A stretch of DNA of 64,000 nucleotides from positions 1 to 64,000 of IMG/VR virus record IMGVR_UViG_3300030108_003783, one strand, 5' to 3'. Below, piece by piece: positions 2 through 48,062 of the stretch (its first letter is position 1; each line of letters starts with the position of its first letter). The position numbers and the translations under genes were made by a program. Source of the stretch: a virus. A model generated the notes under the pieces. That model did no database searches. It had not been told where the DNA came from and saw only the letters and a program-made list of their open reading frames with translations.

Positions 2-247
2 AATAAAAGACCAAGAAAGTTACCAGAAGATATGGTTAAAAAATCTTGGCAAGCAGTACAAAATAACATGGGAAAATTTCAAACTCTATTTGGAGCAAGT
101 AATATGTTAATTGTTGATAATTCAGAATATAAAGAATTTTCAAGAGTAGTTAAAAAAGCTGCTAATTCATTTGTAATTAAACCAATTAAAAATCCTATTG
201 CAAAGAAATGGATTAAAAAAGAATTGGAGCTAAGAAAGAAAATATGA
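2..247 (+). CDS. C-terminal end of a P-loop kinase-like protein (5' end outside window)
   Basis: The frame is open from the left edge, so this is the tail of a longer gene; the ATG at 32 is internal. The visible residues (KLPEDMVKKSW, then GKFQTLFG, ending in a basic segment) parallel the C-terminus of the complete kinase encoded next door (VVERSWQSV, YKSMFGS, AVKWLKHA). The two genes are therefore tandem paralogues. The stop overlaps the next ATG by 4 bases. The P-loop itself is not visible here, so function is inferred from the neighbour. Confidence 0.7.
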   Translation, partial: NKRPRKLPEDMVKKSWQAVQNNMGKFQTLFGASNMLIVDNSEYKEFSRVVKKAANSFVIKPIKNPIAKKWIKKELELRKKI

Positions 248-7479: not shown

Positions 7480-7610
7480 TGAAAGCTAAAAAGAAAATAA
7501 CAGAAAAACTTGATAATAATGATTTAGAACAAATACGAAAAATCATTAGACAAGAAATTGCAGAGTTATTTTTTGACTTATATAGAAAAAGAACCGTTTG
7601 GAGTAAATAA
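7479..7610 (+). CDS. 43-residue conserved prohead-region protein
   Basis: A very short ORF starting in a TAATG overlap and ending in a TAATG overlap with the protease gene, so it fills the gap exactly. The product, opening MKAKKKITEKLDNNDLEQIR, has an amphipathic helix (IRKIIRQEIAELFFDLYRKR) and ends in VWSK. Exact overlaps at both ends argue that it is translated. Its position is that of T4 gp67/gp68 core proteins; function is otherwise unknown. Confidence 0.65.
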   Translation: MKAKKKITEKLDNNDLEQIRKIIRQEIAELFFDLYRKRTVWSK

Positions 7611-8242
7611 TGAAACAAGTACTTATAGATACTATACCATTTAACGTTTCTCCTCAATTGATAAGAGAATCAGAAGAAAGAAATGGAGGAAGAATAATTG
7701 TTACTGGCGTTTTACAAAGAGCCGGTGCTAAAAATCAAAATGGAAGAGTTTACCCAAAAGAGATATTAGCAAGAGAAGCAAAGAAATATGAACAAGTAGA
7801 AATTGCAGAAAGAAGAGCTTTAGGGGAATTAGATCACCCAGATTCTTCTGTGGTTAATTTAGCAAATGCTTCTCACAATATCAATAGAATATGGTGGAAA
7901 GAAAACGACTTATTAGGAGAAGTTGAAATTCTGTCTACACCTTCTGGAAATATATTAAAAGAATTGCTTAAAGCAAATATAAGATTAGGTATATCTTCAA
8001 GAGGAATGGGATCTGTAAAACAATTATCAGAAGATGGAACATTAGAAGTACAAGGCGATTTTGAATTAGTTTGTTGGGACTTCGTTTCCAATCCTTCTAC
8101 ACATGGTGCTTTTATGAACCCAGTAAACGAATCAGTTACAATGGAAACAGTAAATACAAAATATGATAGATTAAACAATATCATTAACGAAATGCTTTGC
8201 GATTTAACATGCAAATGCTCTTTACCTACTAGGAGAAAATAA
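7610..8242 (+). CDS. gp21: prohead core protease (gp21-like)
   Basis: A 210-residue member of the herpesvirus assemblin-like U9/S78 prohead protease group. Catalytic residues appear as H76 in GELDHPDSS and the serine pair S129-S130 in GISSRGMGS. The opening segment RIIVTGVLQRAGAKNQNGRVYP is typical of gp21. The protease matures the head by cutting after (L/I)-x-E in scaffold, capsid and packaged proteins, then degrades itself. Candidate sites are visible in the capsid gene downstream and in several other proteins. Confidence 0.93.
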   Translation: MKQVLIDTIPFNVSPQLIRESEERNGGRIIVTGVLQRAGAKNQNGRVYPKEILAREAKKYEQVEIAERRALGELDHPDSSVVNLANASHNINRIWWKENDLLGEVEILSTPSGNILKELLKANIRLGISSRGMGSVKQLSEDGTLEVQGDFELVCWDFVSNPSTHGAFMNPVNESVTMETVNTKYDRLNNIINEMLCDLTCKCSLPTRRK

Positions 8243-8966: not shown

Positions 8967-9923
8967 ATGAATTCTAAAATGATTAGAAAAATAATTAAAG
9001 AAGAATTACAAGCTCTTCTTATAACAGAAAAATTTGAATCGAAAAAGCTTTCAAATCTATACTCTATGCTATCAGCTGAAAGATGGTCAGGTGGTAAAAC
9101 TATCTTTACAAAAATAGCAGCAACAAAGAAATTTGATTGGGCAAACACACCAGACTCTGCAATTAAAAAAGCAACATCAGGTAATGCTGGAGCAAACATA
9201 TTAAATGTATTTGTAGTAACAAAGAAAAAGCAAAACATGCAAGACAGAGGCTATTACTATAACACTATACAACCAGGTTTACTTGGTATGACTTTAGGAA
9301 AGAAGATATTAGGAGCTAATGGTAATATAGTTAATAGAAAAGGTGATAGAGCTGGAGCTGATTATACTAAGAAAGGCGTTCACAATTTCAAACAATTTAA
9401 TGCTTATGCAGATGAAGTTTATCAAATAGATACAACTAAAGTTCCAAGCTCAGTTGATATAGCAAACGCAAGAGCAGCTGCAAAAGCTGGAGCAACAGCA
9501 TTACTTTCAGCAAGAGATGTATTAAGAAATAACAAAAAAAGATACCAAGATGCTTTAACAATGAAAGCTGGAGAAGGTGGTTGGAAATCAGCAAGAGATT
9601 ATGTAAAACGTGCAACTGAAACTTTACAAAAGGCTGTAGAAAATCATACAAAAATGTTATCCAATGGAATGTACATGAACACTTGGAATAATGAATATGG
9701 TAATGCTTCAACATTATATGGTAACATAATGGAAAAGTTTAAAAGATTTCAAGAGCAAAACAAATCTGCTTTGAAACATAAAGCCGACGGTAGAGAAACC
9801 GATTATCATAAAGATAGAATGGCTTCAACTCTAAAAGAAATGAAAGATTTATTTATAGATTTTAATAGAAGAATGAAACAATTAGAAGGCGCTAAACCAC
9901 AAAAAATTCAAGCAGGTTGGTAA
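8967..9923 (+). CDS. hypothetical protein, probably virion-associated
   Basis: A 318-residue protein not assigned to a family. It opens MIRKIIKEELQALLITE-K, the same kind of short helical leader ending in a gp21-like ITE site seen in other genes here. The middle is alanine-rich and basic with a long predicted helix. It lies between protease and scaffold genes behind a weak GGAGG, so it is probably made late and placed in or on the prohead. Confidence 0.65.
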   Translation: MNSKMIRKIIKEELQALLITEKFESKKLSNLYSMLSAERWSGGKTIFTKIAATKKFDWANTPDSAIKKATSGNAGANILNVFVVTKKKQNMQDRGYYYNTIQPGLLGMTLGKKILGANGNIVNRKGDRAGADYTKKGVHNFKQFNAYADEVYQIDTTKVPSSVDIANARAAAKAGATALLSARDVLRNNKKRYQDALTMKAGEGGWKSARDYVKRATETLQKAVENHTKMLSNGMYMNTWNNEYGNASTLYGNIMEKFKRFQEQNKSALKHKADGRETDYHKDRMASTLKEMKDLFIDFNRRMKQLEGAKPQKIQAGW

Positions 9924-9967
9924 AAAATACAACCCTCATCGCTCTCAATAAAAAAGTTGGCTTATTC

Positions 9968-9999
9968 TTTGGATAAGTCAATTTTTTTTGTTATATTTA
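9968..9999 (+). promoter_or_regulatory. early/middle promoter: TTTGGATAAGTC ... TATATTTA
   Basis: TTTGG box and TATATTTA box with exactly 20 bases between TTG and TATATTT, 35 bases before the bS21 gene. The -7 region also contains TATTTATA (9994-10001), so the late motif overlaps it. This is the only early-type promoter inside the head-gene block. Confidence 0.75.
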
Positions 10000-10034
10000 T
10001 ATGTAATTAAAATTATTCACTAAAACAAAATTAT

Positions 10035-10370
10035 ATGAAAAAATTTGTTCCTAGAGATAGATCTGGTAAACCTATTTCTAATTATAAGAAAAGACATGAA
10101 TTTGTTATACCGGGTATACCTTCCGGTGTCAAAGTTCCAGGTAATACATCTGGTGATTTAGAAAAAGCTTTGAAAATCTTTAAAAGACAATTGAAAGACA
10201 CTGGAAAGTTGGAGGAGCTGAGAGATCGGCGATATTATGAAAAGCCTTCTGCTGCAAGAGTTAAAAAGATGGACAAAGCTATCAGATTACAGCAAAAGAA
10301 AACAAGACTTGAAAAAGCTTGGGATAAAAAGCATATCTGGACTTCTATTATAGACGGCAAAGCTCAATAA
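10035..10370 (+). CDS. rpsU: ribosomal protein bS21 homologue
   Basis: A 111-residue protein. Residues about 30-85 match bS21: GVKVPGNTSGDLEKALKIFK, then KDTGKLEELRDRRYYEKPSAAR, the family signature with FYEKPS-type core. It has about 30 extra N-terminal and 25 extra C-terminal residues compared with cellular bS21 (about 65-70 residues). bS21 sits beside the 3' end of 16S rRNA and affects start-site choice. The gene has its own early-type promoter and no SD, unlike the late head genes around it. Phage bS21 genes are known from metagenomic phages. Confidence 0.85.
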   Translation: MKKFVPRDRSGKPISNYKKRHEFVIPGIPSGVKVPGNTSGDLEKALKIFKRQLKDTGKLEELRDRRYYEKPSAARVKKMDKAIRLQQKKTRLEKAWDKKHIWTSIIDGKAQ

Positions 10371-10394: not shown

Positions 10395-10424
10395 TTTAGA
10401 CAATAGTTAATTTTATTGTCTAAA
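10395..10424 (+). terminator. 11-bp hairpin after bS21 gene, possible terminator
   Basis: A perfect inverted repeat (TTTAGACAATA / TATTGTCTAAA) with an 8-base loop, 24 bases after the bS21 stop. It is not followed by a T-run, so it may be an RNA-processing or stability element rather than a classical terminator. The 220-base gap 10371-10590 holds this hairpin, a late motif and a leader hairpin (10538-10557, TAAGGTT / AACCTTA). Confidence 0.4.
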
Positions 10425-10462
10425 TTGTTGTGGAAAAACTATTCTTTTTCTATATTTCTATA

Positions 10463-10470
10463 TATTTATA
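10463..10470 (+). promoter_or_regulatory. late promoter motif TATTTATA
   Basis: TATATTTATATTC, 120 bases before the scaffold gene. It would give the scaffold a long leader that contains the small hairpin at 10538-10557. Confidence 0.5.
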
Positions 10471-10590
10471 TTCGAATCAAGCATACAAAAATGCGTTATC
10501 ACTATATAATGCAGTATGTATTTAAAAACATTCCTATTAAGGTTCCCAATAACCTTATTTCCAAATTTAACATATTAAAGGAGAGAACAA

Positions 10591-11577
10591 ATGTCAAAAG
10601 ATTTGTTAAAAGAAGCTATTGCTGATGCGAAGGCTGTTAGAGAAACTGCAATTGCAAACGCAAAATTAGCTTTAGAAGAAGCTTTCACTCCAAGACTTCA
10701 AAGTATGTTGTCTGCTAAGATTCAAGAAGAAGACGACATGGATGAGAATGATGATGTAGAAGAACAACATGACGCTGCAACTGAAGATCCAGGCAAGAAC
10801 GACGTATTTGCTGAAGACGAGGAAATGGAAGAAGATGAGGAAACTAACGAAACTGAAGATATGGACGAAACAGAAGACGCTGAAGAAGGCTATCATAAAG
10901 AAGGCGAGGACATGGAAGAAGGTGAAGATATGGACGAAGCTGACGATATGGACGAAACAGAAGAAACTGAAGAAGGCATGTACGAAGATGAATTAGAAGA
11001 AATCATCAAAGAATTAGAGGAAGAGGATGATATGGATGAAACTGAAGATATGGATGAAGCAGAAGACATGGATGAAGAAAAAGAAGACATGAAAGAAGCT
11101 GAAGACATGGATGAAGATGAAGACATGGATGAAAACCTTGACCTTGACGAAGTAATCAAAGCATTACGTGAAGAAGATGATATGGATGAAGAAGAAAAGA
11201 AAGAAGAAGGTATGTATGAAGACGAACTTGAAGAAGCTTACAAGACTATTAGATCTTTAAAAGCAACTATCAATGAAGTTAATTTACTTAACGCTAAGCT
11301 TTTATTCTCAAACAAATTATTCAGAAGTAATGATTTGAAAGAATCGCAAAAAATGAAAGTAATTGAAACGTTCGATAGAGCTAACTCTGTAAGAGAAGTT
11401 AAATTAGTTTATTCTACTTTAGCTGAATCTTTCAAAGGATACACTCCAAAGAGAACTAAAAAGATTACTGAAGGCTTTGCTTCTAAAGCTTCAAGATCTA
11501 CGGCACCAAAGAAAGGTGCAATTGTTGAATCTTCTAATTTTTCAAATAGAATGAAAAAATTAGCAGGTTTATTGTAA
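10591..11577 (+). CDS. gp22: prohead scaffold protein (gp22-like)
   Basis: A 328-residue protein with strong AAGGAG. It opens MSKDLLKE-A, a candidate gp21 site. Residues about 45-215 are an extremely acidic repeat built from DMDE and ETED units. The C-terminal third (INEVNLLNAKLLFSNKLF, then ESQKMKVIETFDRA and NRMKKLAGLL) has the conserved gp22 core-protein character. It lies directly before the capsid gene as in T4. It forms the internal core on which capsid assembles and is digested by gp21. Confidence 0.88.
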   Translation: MSKDLLKEAIADAKAVRETAIANAKLALEEAFTPRLQSMLSAKIQEEDDMDENDDVEEQHDAATEDPGKNDVFAEDEEMEEDEETNETEDMDETEDAEEGYHKEGEDMEEGEDMDEADDMDETEETEEGMYEDELEEIIKELEEEDDMDETEDMDEAEDMDEEKEDMKEAEDMDEDEDMDENLDLDEVIKALREEDDMDEEEKKEEGMYEDELEEAYKTIRSLKATINEVNLLNAKLLFSNKLFRSNDLKESQKMKVIETFDRANSVREVKLVYSTLAESFKGYTPKRTKKITEGFASKASRSTAPKKGAIVESSNFSNRMKKLAGLL

Positions 11578-11612: not shown

Positions 11613-13253
11613 ATGTCAAATCAAATTTCAAACTTATTAGCAAACTCAGAAGCTTCATTTCGTGCACAAAGAAATGAAACTAAAGTTCTTGTTAATAAAT
11701 GGGAAAAAACTGGTCTTCTAGAAGGTATCGATAAAGAATACGATAAGCACAATACTGCTATCCTTTTAGAAAATCAAGCTAAGCAATTGATTACAGAGGC
11801 TAACTCTACTTCAACTACTTCAAAAGAAGAATGGAACGGCGTTGCTCTTCCACTAGTTAGAAGAATCTTTGGTGAACTTAGCGCAAAAGAATTCGTTAGC
11901 GTACAGCCGATGAATTTACCATCAGGTCTAGTATTCTGGTTAGATTTCAAATATGGCTCAAATGCTATGGGAGATGCTAACGGAAGAAGATTTAACGATG
12001 GAACTGATATCTTAGGTGATACTTCATCTTCAAGCACACCAACTGGTGGTCTTTACGGAAGAGGTAAATCTGGATATACTACTGCTTTAACTGAATCAGC
12101 TGCTGTAACTGCAACACACGCTACTGCATCTTGGGAAGACTTAGGATATGATGGTGCACTTTCTGCATCTGTAGCTGCTGGTAAAGTAATGAAAGTTACT
12201 TTAGCTTCATCTAATTATCCAACTGATTTTGATGCAGACGCTGTTAAGTCTGTAGCTATTTCTGCTTCAGATGGTGGTAAATATGATGTAGCTGATAACT
12301 TACAAGCTTATAACTATACTTCAGGAACTAACTCATACTTCTTTACTTCAAAAGATTCTGCTGGTGGAGCTGCTCCAACTGCAATCGGAAAAATCTTTTA
12401 TGGTAAAGCTCCTGCTGATAATTTATCAAGAGGTGACTTTGAGGATAGATCAGGTGGTCAAGCTGCTGCTGCAAATGGTACAATCGGTCAAACTGATTTA
12501 GCTATTCCAGAAATCGATGTAGCTTTAAAGCAAGAAGCTTTAATTGCTAAAACTAGAAAGCTAAAAGTTGTTTGGACTCCAGAGTTTGCACAAGACTTAA
12601 ATGCATACCACTCTATCGATGCTGAAGCAGAATTAACTTCAATGCTATCTGAGTATGTATCAATGGAAATTGATATGGAAATCTTAGAAATGGTATCTGA
12701 TGCTGCACTTCACACTGATAACTGGATTGCTGAATTAGGTAAGATTGCTACTGCTGGTTCTGATGTATTAACTGCATCTGATAACGTAGCTGCTTATACG
12801 CAACACACTTGGTTCCAAACGTTAGGTACTAAACTACAGAAAGTTTCTAACAAGATTCATGCTTCAACAATGAGAGGGGGTGCAAACTTCGTAGTAGCTT
12901 CTCCAGATGTATGTACAATCTTAGAATCTTTAACTGGGTTTGGAGCTGACACTGATGGACTTAAAAATCAGTTTGCAATGGGTGTATCTAAAGTTGGTGC
13001 TATCAACAACAGATATACTGTATACAAGAATCCTTACTGGCAAGACAATGAATTATTAATGGGCTTCAGGGGAGCACAATTCCTTGAAACTGGTGCTGTT
13101 TATGCTCCGTACATTCCGTTAATTATGACTCCACTTGTTTATGATCCTACTAACTTTACTCCAAGAAAAGGTGTAATGACAAGATACGCTAAGAAAGTTG
13201 TTAGACCTGAGTTCTACGGTAAGATCTACATAGGACAATTAAATCAAATTTAA
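11613..13253 (+). CDS. gp23: major capsid protein precursor (gp23-like)
   Basis: The ATG at 11613 has AGGAGA 6 bases upstream; the TTG at 11595 is not needed. The 546-residue product matches gp23: SVQPMNLPSGLVFWLDFKYG, then YSIDAEAELTS-type segments, ANFVVASPDVCTILE, and a C-terminal MTRYAKKVVRPEFYGKIYIG. A cut at LITE62-A63 would remove a propeptide about as long as that of T4 gp23 (65 residues). It is followed by a strong terminator. Confidence 0.95.
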   Translation: MSNQISNLLANSEASFRAQRNETKVLVNKWEKTGLLEGIDKEYDKHNTAILLENQAKQLITEANSTSTTSKEEWNGVALPLVRRIFGELSAKEFVSVQPMNLPSGLVFWLDFKYGSNAMGDANGRRFNDGTDILGDTSSSSTPTGGLYGRGKSGYTTALTESAAVTATHATASWEDLGYDGALSASVAAGKVMKVTLASSNYPTDFDADAVKSVAISASDGGKYDVADNLQAYNYTSGTNSYFFTSKDSAGGAAPTAIGKIFYGKAPADNLSRGDFEDRSGGQAAAANGTIGQTDLAIPEIDVALKQEALIAKTRKLKVVWTPEFAQDLNAYHSIDAEAELTSMLSEYVSMEIDMEILEMVSDAALHTDNWIAELGKIATAGSDVLTASDNVAAYTQHTWFQTLGTKLQKVSNKIHASTMRGGANFVVASPDVCTILESLTGFGADTDGLKNQFAMGVSKVGAINNRYTVYKNPYWQDNELLMGFRGAQFLETGAVYAPYIPLIMTPLVYDPTNFTPRKGVMTRYAKKVVRPEFYGKIYIGQLNQI

Positions 13254-46115: not shown

Positions 46116-46156
46116 TTATACAAAATAAGTTATAAAATTAATAAATGGAGGTTAAC

Positions 46157-48062
<1,906 letters not shown>

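Follow-up and report, generated by a model that had tools for sequence, protein, structure and literature searches.

The window analysed here covers the first 64 kb of a virus record of 133,730 bases, and essentially every gene in it lies on the + strand. Homologues of gp17, gp20, gp21 and gp23 follow one another in the head-block order of T4-like myoviruses, and a gene for the ribosomal protein bS21 sits among the terminase, portal, protease and capsid genes, on their strand (Table 1). The gene in the scaffold position had no family match in profile searches.

Table 1. Features of the head block around the bS21 gene (window coordinates; a single number is a start position)
Feature	Position	Strand	Basis or remark
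Terminase (gp17 homologue)	2718	+	Head-block order
Portal (gp20 homologue)	4308	+	Followed by two genes without assigned function before the protease
Prohead protease gp21	7610..8242	+	Family match
gp8242	8242	+	Between prohead protease and gp8967
gp8967, upstream head-block gene	8967..9923	+	Function not assigned; Shine-Dalgarno site AGGAGG
Terminator-like hairpin with T-run at the end of the upstream head genes	9950..9988	+	3' arm lies within the promoter
Early-type promoter TTTGGATAAGTCAATTTTTTTTGTTATATTTA	9968..9999	+	-33-like TTTG 9968-9971; -7-like TATATTTA 9992-9999
Inferred 5' leader, about 31 nt	10004..10034	+	No Shine-Dalgarno site
Extended bS21 gene	10035..10370	+	111 aa, ATG start; Pfam, PHROG, alignment, AlphaFold2
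bS21 N-terminal extension	residues 1-34		F. johnsoniae alignment
bS21 core	residues about 35-98		F. johnsoniae alignment
bS21 C-terminal extension	residues 99-111		F. johnsoniae alignment
Hairpin downstream of bS21, terminator-like	10396..10424	+	Compensatory changes in L002, L003 and L005
Late-type promoter element CTATATATTTATATTC ahead of scaffold gene	10458..10473	+	
Shine-Dalgarno site AAGGAG of scaffold gene	10578..10583	+	
Scaffold-position gene, acidic, gp22 slot	10591..11577	+	Assigned by position
Major capsid protein gp23, Shine-Dalgarno-led	11613..13253	+	Family match
PhoH	13378	+	After capsid gp23

Residues 40-84 of the bS21 ORF match the Pfam family Ribosomal_S21 (PF01165) at 5e-13 and 48.9 bits, above the curated cut-off of 27. 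The ORF is also matched by PHROG 21469 ('ribosomal protein S21'), and it is the sole bS21 on the 133.7-kb record. The helical core expected of bS21 is present in the structure predicted by AlphaFold2 (pLDDT 81, pTM 0.41), which has helices at residues 39-56, 58-66 and 71-99 and leaves residues 1-38 without a regular fold; a Foldseek search of the PDB with this model returned no significant match. The original prediction had described a bS21 core with extra residues at both ends, and this was borne out by the Pfam match and by alignment with the 64-aa Flavobacterium johnsoniae (F. johnsoniae) protein, which leaves about 34 residues ahead of the core. Its figure of about 25 extra C-terminal residues depends on the yardstick, since about 13 residues extend past the F. 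johnsoniae protein and 27 past the Pfam domain. The position of F. johnsoniae Tyr54 is occupied by Arg in the phage protein, and the other members of the extended clade that were scored have Arg or Ala there, not an aromatic residue. Judged by sequence, the ORF is a real, extended bS21 inside a T4-like head block.

The placement of bS21 in this slot is not unique to this phage. Relatives L002-L016 have identical gene order, with a bS21 in the matching slot that is 45-72% identical over its full length and has both extensions, while L017-L019 and phage Mel-JY01 have a shorter bS21 in the matching slot. A bS21 near head genes was found in 72 of 146 relatives and is thus common in the phage group. 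N-terminal extensions were present in most of the group's bS21s (47/64, using a crude anchor), and 27 have a PG..GVxV-like motif immediately before the core. A separate observation concerns the N-termini MIKLKNLLHE, MKLRNLLKE and MKLKKIIKE, which recur and end in (L/I)xE (window 8242 and 32640; genome 73330, 75706, 76076 and 76600). They resemble the T4 prohead-targeting peptides cut by gp21, and their bearers are possibly internal head proteins.

The bS21 promoter matches TTTGGATAWGTCRA-N9-TTATATTTA with 0 mismatches. A genome-wide scan allowing up to 4 mismatches finds this motif 22 times, always on the coding (+) strand; the opposite strand has none. The motif also lies ahead of small, widely spaced genes at 78-92 kb, a region that looks like an early one. 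The promoter is kept in L002-L005 and in L186; in other members of the extended clade, bS21 is preceded by a TTATATT element and a leader poor in Shine-Dalgarno (SD) sites. Compared with the Bacteroidota consensus TTTG / TAnnTTTG (-33/-7) (PMC6847099) and its 19-20 nt spacer, the arrangement TTTG-N20-TATATTTA differs in the final G alone. The TATATTTA element is found in Flavobacterium phage immuto as well, which also has promoters paired with a hairpin in the way seen ahead of bS21. Since a generic sigma-70 scan for the bS21 promoter gave no more matches than shuffles, the case for the promoter rests on the recurrent motif and its conservation. A CATCGCTCTC element ahead of the hairpin was considered and dropped, being a single copy conserved in near relatives only.

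The arms of the upstream hairpin covary in L005, where GGCTTAT/GATAAGTC becomes GGCATAT/GATATGTC. The T-run after the downstream hairpin is clear in relatives and weaker in the window, and an Rfam search of the window gave no match. By the F. johnsoniae rule of a start 4-5 nt past the -7 element, transcription of bS21 would begin near 10004; the resulting leader is SD-free in the window phage and in L002-L005. Elements containing ATATTTATA number 29 forward versus 4 reverse on the record, a count that includes early elements with that string. We infer the 'early' and 'late' promoter classes from promoter type and genome layout. With that understanding, the earlier claim that bS21 has its own early promoter and a hairpin is upheld as regards an early-type promoter and hairpins on both sides, and the claimed contrast with its late neighbours holds at the level of promoter class, the scaffold gene having the late-type element. 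In L189, L195, L184 and L183 a second early-type promoter lies directly 3' of bS21, and between it and the scaffold gene there is a small additional ORF.

The head-gene location and the long basic extensions could also indicate a protein that is no longer ribosomal, a bS21 derivative that binds RNA or associates with the head. This would explain where the gene lies, but we regard it as very improbable: the conserved core scores above the Pfam cut-off, the promoter is early-type, and the bS21 of a related phage, Pelagibacter phage HTVC008M, enters E. coli 70S ribosomes (Mizuno et al. 2019; PMC6375957). The HTVC008M protein, described along with bS21s of other aquatic phages, differs in being 67 aa long and of alphaproteobacterial type, as is its host, compared with 111 aa here.

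The host is very probably a member of the Bacteroidota, as indicated by a type IX secretion tail, Q-rule signal peptides and Bacteroidota-like promoters. A 1057-aa protein at 67074-70247 (L082:3074-6247) has a type IX sorting tail (PF18962, E=1e-9) at its C-terminal end, and a protein with such a tail is also found in relatives G001-G003. Signal peptides with Gln after the cleavage site (FA/QTTDSW, HS/QSVKTI and QA/QTQGDW, the slash marking cleavage) occur here and likewise in G001-G003; this Q-rule is specific to Bacteroidota and does not extend to the wider FCB group (PMC5837995). With both a Q-rule signal peptide and the type IX tail, the 1057-aa protein, which is conserved in G001-G003, is apparently exported via the host type IX system. 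The phage also encodes GroES and GroEL (window 46145-48062), in common with G001-G003 and immuto. The highest GroEL scores were obtained with Bacteroidota (60 genomes, 572-623 bits, compared with 564 for Nitrospirota and Salmonella), and 578 bits was the best among the matches listed against plasmids. The GroEL tree was rejected as a host marker: the phage protein groups with that of immuto, which alone is insufficient to place the host. Bacteroidia ribosomes sequester the anti-Shine-Dalgarno (ASD) with bS21, bS18 and bS6, and characterised members are SD-blind (PMC9976891). Because such ribosomes hide the ASD, an SD-led late programme in a Bacteroidota host is a puzzle that bS21 could solve.

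A gene was scored as having an SD site if positions -4 to -20 contained at least 5 nt (stricter) or at least 4 nt (looser) of TAAGGAGGTG, and the results were compared with control windows; gene starts came from a simple longest-ATG rule, on which the SD calls depend. In the phage's own genome, 32% of genes had a site at the stricter threshold and 56% at the looser one, against 3-6% and 11-12% in control windows. The corresponding values were 0% and 4% in immuto and 6% and 8% in RM378, and neither phage has bS21. The sites are unevenly distributed over promoter classes. Only 3/21 genes behind the strict early motif had an SD site, compared with 81/136 other genes (p=1e-4), and in relative G001 the counts were 2/22 and 85/139 (p=4e-6). 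When four genomes were pooled, using a loose early-type class that includes elements outside the strict motif, sites followed 25/78 early-type and 38/46 late-type elements (p=4e-8); position as first or internal gene is therefore not the whole explanation. When only 0-6 nt separated the end of the promoter element from the start codon, 0/25 genes in the four genomes had a site. Genes of this kind include those at window 30019, 33970, 41884, 48331 and 49523 and at genome 76076, 77160 and 114451, with 3-5 nt between the -7-like element and the first ATG. Such elements predict leaderless mRNAs for the 25 genes, although translation of some may truly start at an ATG further on. In immuto and in the clade with a 66-aa bS21 (L094, L156 and others), AAAGG abuts the start codon (AAAAAGGTT-ATG, GTAAAGG-ATG), too near for a normal SD.

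We propose, with a probability of roughly 60%, that an early, SD-free phage bS21 replaces host bS21, frees the ASD and favours the SD-led late mRNAs. In host ribosomes the ASD tail of the 16S rRNA would be tucked away with bS21, bS18 and bS6, and initiation would take place on A-rich, SD-free leaders. The first phage genes, bS21 among them, would be read from host-type promoters, and because their leaders are SD-free or nearly so, unmodified ribosomes could translate them. Phage bS21 would then displace the exchangeable host protein on the 30S subunit. Its altered ends would cease to hold the ASD away, or would actively present it, so that SD sites become readable; the release perhaps depends on the N-terminal extension, situated ahead of the helix that overlies the ASD (PMC9723584). 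Scaffold, capsid, sheath and other late genes, with SD sites and late-type promoters, would finally outcompete SD-free host mRNAs.

Phage bS21 could instead replace the host protein without any switch, keeping the 30S pool replete with bS21 or resisting a phage-encoded removal of host bS21, while SD sites serve re-initiation in long late operons. Operon-internal genes do carry many SD sites, bS21 can be exchanged and limits initiation (PMC6375957), and McNutt et al. speculate that a phage protease acts against host bS21 (PMC9976891). We nevertheless consider this account improbable, since first genes behind late promoters are SD-led as well, in the late-type proportion given above, and relatives lacking bS21 have the same late operons without SD sites.

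Co-variation of bS21 and SD usage, a coupling absent from the original prediction, was examined across relatives. Four capsid-based IMG/VR scans yielded 146 non-redundant loci covering the bS21 slot, on contigs that are often incomplete; a first capsid tree of 72 rows had 5 changes, too few independent pairs, and was enlarged to this set. The median SD fraction was 0.60 in loci with bS21 (n=72) and 0.11, the background level, in those without it (n=74; Mann-Whitney p=2e-20, kinship ignored). The enlarged tree has at least 9 changes of bS21 state. Of 7 well-supported independent pairs, 5-6 show SD usage changing in step with bS21 and about 0 show the opposite, a result of borderline significance in a kinship-aware sign test (p about 0.03-0.06). 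Locus L264 combines high SD usage with a slot lacking bS21, but it is no true exception because a bS21 lies 116 kb off on the same contig; its sisters L257 and L286 have no bS21 and an SD fraction of 13%. Discordant cases are two or three high-SD loci, among them L519 and L512, on whose incomplete contigs no bS21 was found, and L250, L302, L538, L530, L496 and L306, which have bS21 and little SD usage. That an early phage protein turns SD-blind Bacteroidota ribosomes into SD-readers, and that the phage genome follows two initiation codes (SD-free for early genes, SD-led for late ones) which come and go with bS21, is in our judgement an even bet.

The co-variation could also arise if phages with bS21 infect hosts, Bacteroidota lineages or others, whose ribosomes already read SD sites, with bS21 topping up or matching the host protein and SD usage tracking the host. 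Both bS21 presence and SD usage are clustered on the tree, the hosts of the contigs are inferred, and the sole isolate of the bS21-bearing kind is recorded from Microcystis elabens, all of which would fit such a host effect. Against it, type IX tails and the Q-rule place the phage's own clade in the Bacteroidota, whose characterised members are SD-blind (PMC9976891). The promoter element is common to both groups, and TATAAT/TTGACA, the sigma-70 consensus, is enriched in neither. Type IX tails occur in phages with bS21 (our phage, G001-G003, L261 and L299) and without it (immuto, L333 and L340), and SD usage is high in the former and 0.04-0.12 in the latter; since tails and promoter element are found in both groups, a difference of host phylum fails for these phages. 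SD-free early genes in the same genomes would also be unexpected in a host that always reads SD sites. We therefore hold this explanation to be unlikely, although it deserves more weight than the two discussed above.

The bS21 genes themselves are in keeping with the proposed switch. In SD-using phages the bS21 gene was SD-led in 17/60 cases, compared with a mean of 62% for other genes, and such mostly SD-free genes fit a protein that is needed before ribosomes can read SD sites. A promoter element was found within 140 nt of the bS21 gene in 25/69. Early timing would not be general, because in the L156 type bS21 lies in a common operon and has no promoter of its own; in metatranscriptomes, other Bacteroidota phages co-express bS21 and their late genes (PMC9723584).

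A close experimental parallel is F. johnsoniae (McNutt et al. 2023; PMC9976891), where the state of bS21 sets the readability of the ASD. Tyr54 stacks on A1534, and the Y54A change or loss of the bS21 C-terminus leads to 3- to 5-fold better translation of strong-SD mRNA, so that a missing or altered bS21 works in favour of SD-led mRNA. The phage differs: in F. johnsoniae only rpsU has an SD, for autoregulation, and it is read when the ribosome lacks bS21, whereas the phage bS21 gene is SD-free and the late genes are SD-led. F. johnsoniae also needed a very strong SD, with pairing below -13 kcal/mol, and most sites in the phage are the weaker AGGA/AGGAG. Tyr54 as the single determinant of SD state, which the first set of relatives suggested, was rejected because it did not hold within the capsid lineage. 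Several SD-using relatives with bS21 keep Tyr, so release of the ASD must rest on features beyond this residue. Chlorobia have no Tyr54 and are yet SD-poor (PMC9976891), and the logic of residue 54 is loose.

Phage bS21, its head-block location and the notion that it steers ribosomes towards phage mRNA are already known (PMC6375957, PMC9723584, PMC9976891). In Bacteroidota jumbo phages, Chen et al. 2022 found bS21 near terminase, portal, protease and capsid genes and proposed that it replaces host bS21 (PMC9723584). Location and, very probably, host phylum are as in our phage. Those genes, however, lie on the strand opposite the structural genes, while ours is on the same strand, and their products always have an aromatic residue at position 54, with no link to SD reported, where ours has Arg. 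Ours is further set apart by its extensions at both ends, its early-type promoter and the SD-using genome in which it lies; G006, a relative of the Chen type with Tyr54, has SD sites in 8% of genes. Phage immuto (NC_055915) shares the T4-like head block (terminase 54% and capsid 49% identity) and the promoter element, but has neither bS21 nor SD usage. Within the open-access literature, which leaves preprints and most subscription journals outside, we found no earlier report of bS21-SD co-variation or of an SD-free early-type bS21 gene combined with SD-led late genes. Among ribosomal proteins, bS21 is the one that phages carry most frequently, and the link to SD usage would give it a concrete job. 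If the proposed switch is true, it would constitute a virus-made specialised ribosome that separates viral from host messages by the SD signal. It would also account for the sharp differences in SD usage among Bacteroidota phages, allow the phages that do this to be predicted from sequence, and offer a possible tool for SD-controlled expression in Bacteroidota.

Some further observations concern the wider genome and its relatives. Phage Mel-JY01 (PP395634.1; L095, L553-L555) is recorded from Microcystis elabens, yet is nearest to Bacteroidota phages; it has no annotated photosynthesis genes and has a 'major paralogous domain' protein, which makes the recorded host questionable. A permuted tmRNA (RF04321, 72.9 bits) with the tag GKQVEYAMAA lies at L083:9038-9196 (genome 93038-93196) and is also present in G001; it was not found in G002-G005, immuto, Mel-JY01 or RM378. 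The early-like region contains a match to the DUF805b cis-regulatory RNA family (RF02914, 40.5 bits) at L083:8113-8148 (genome 92113-92148).
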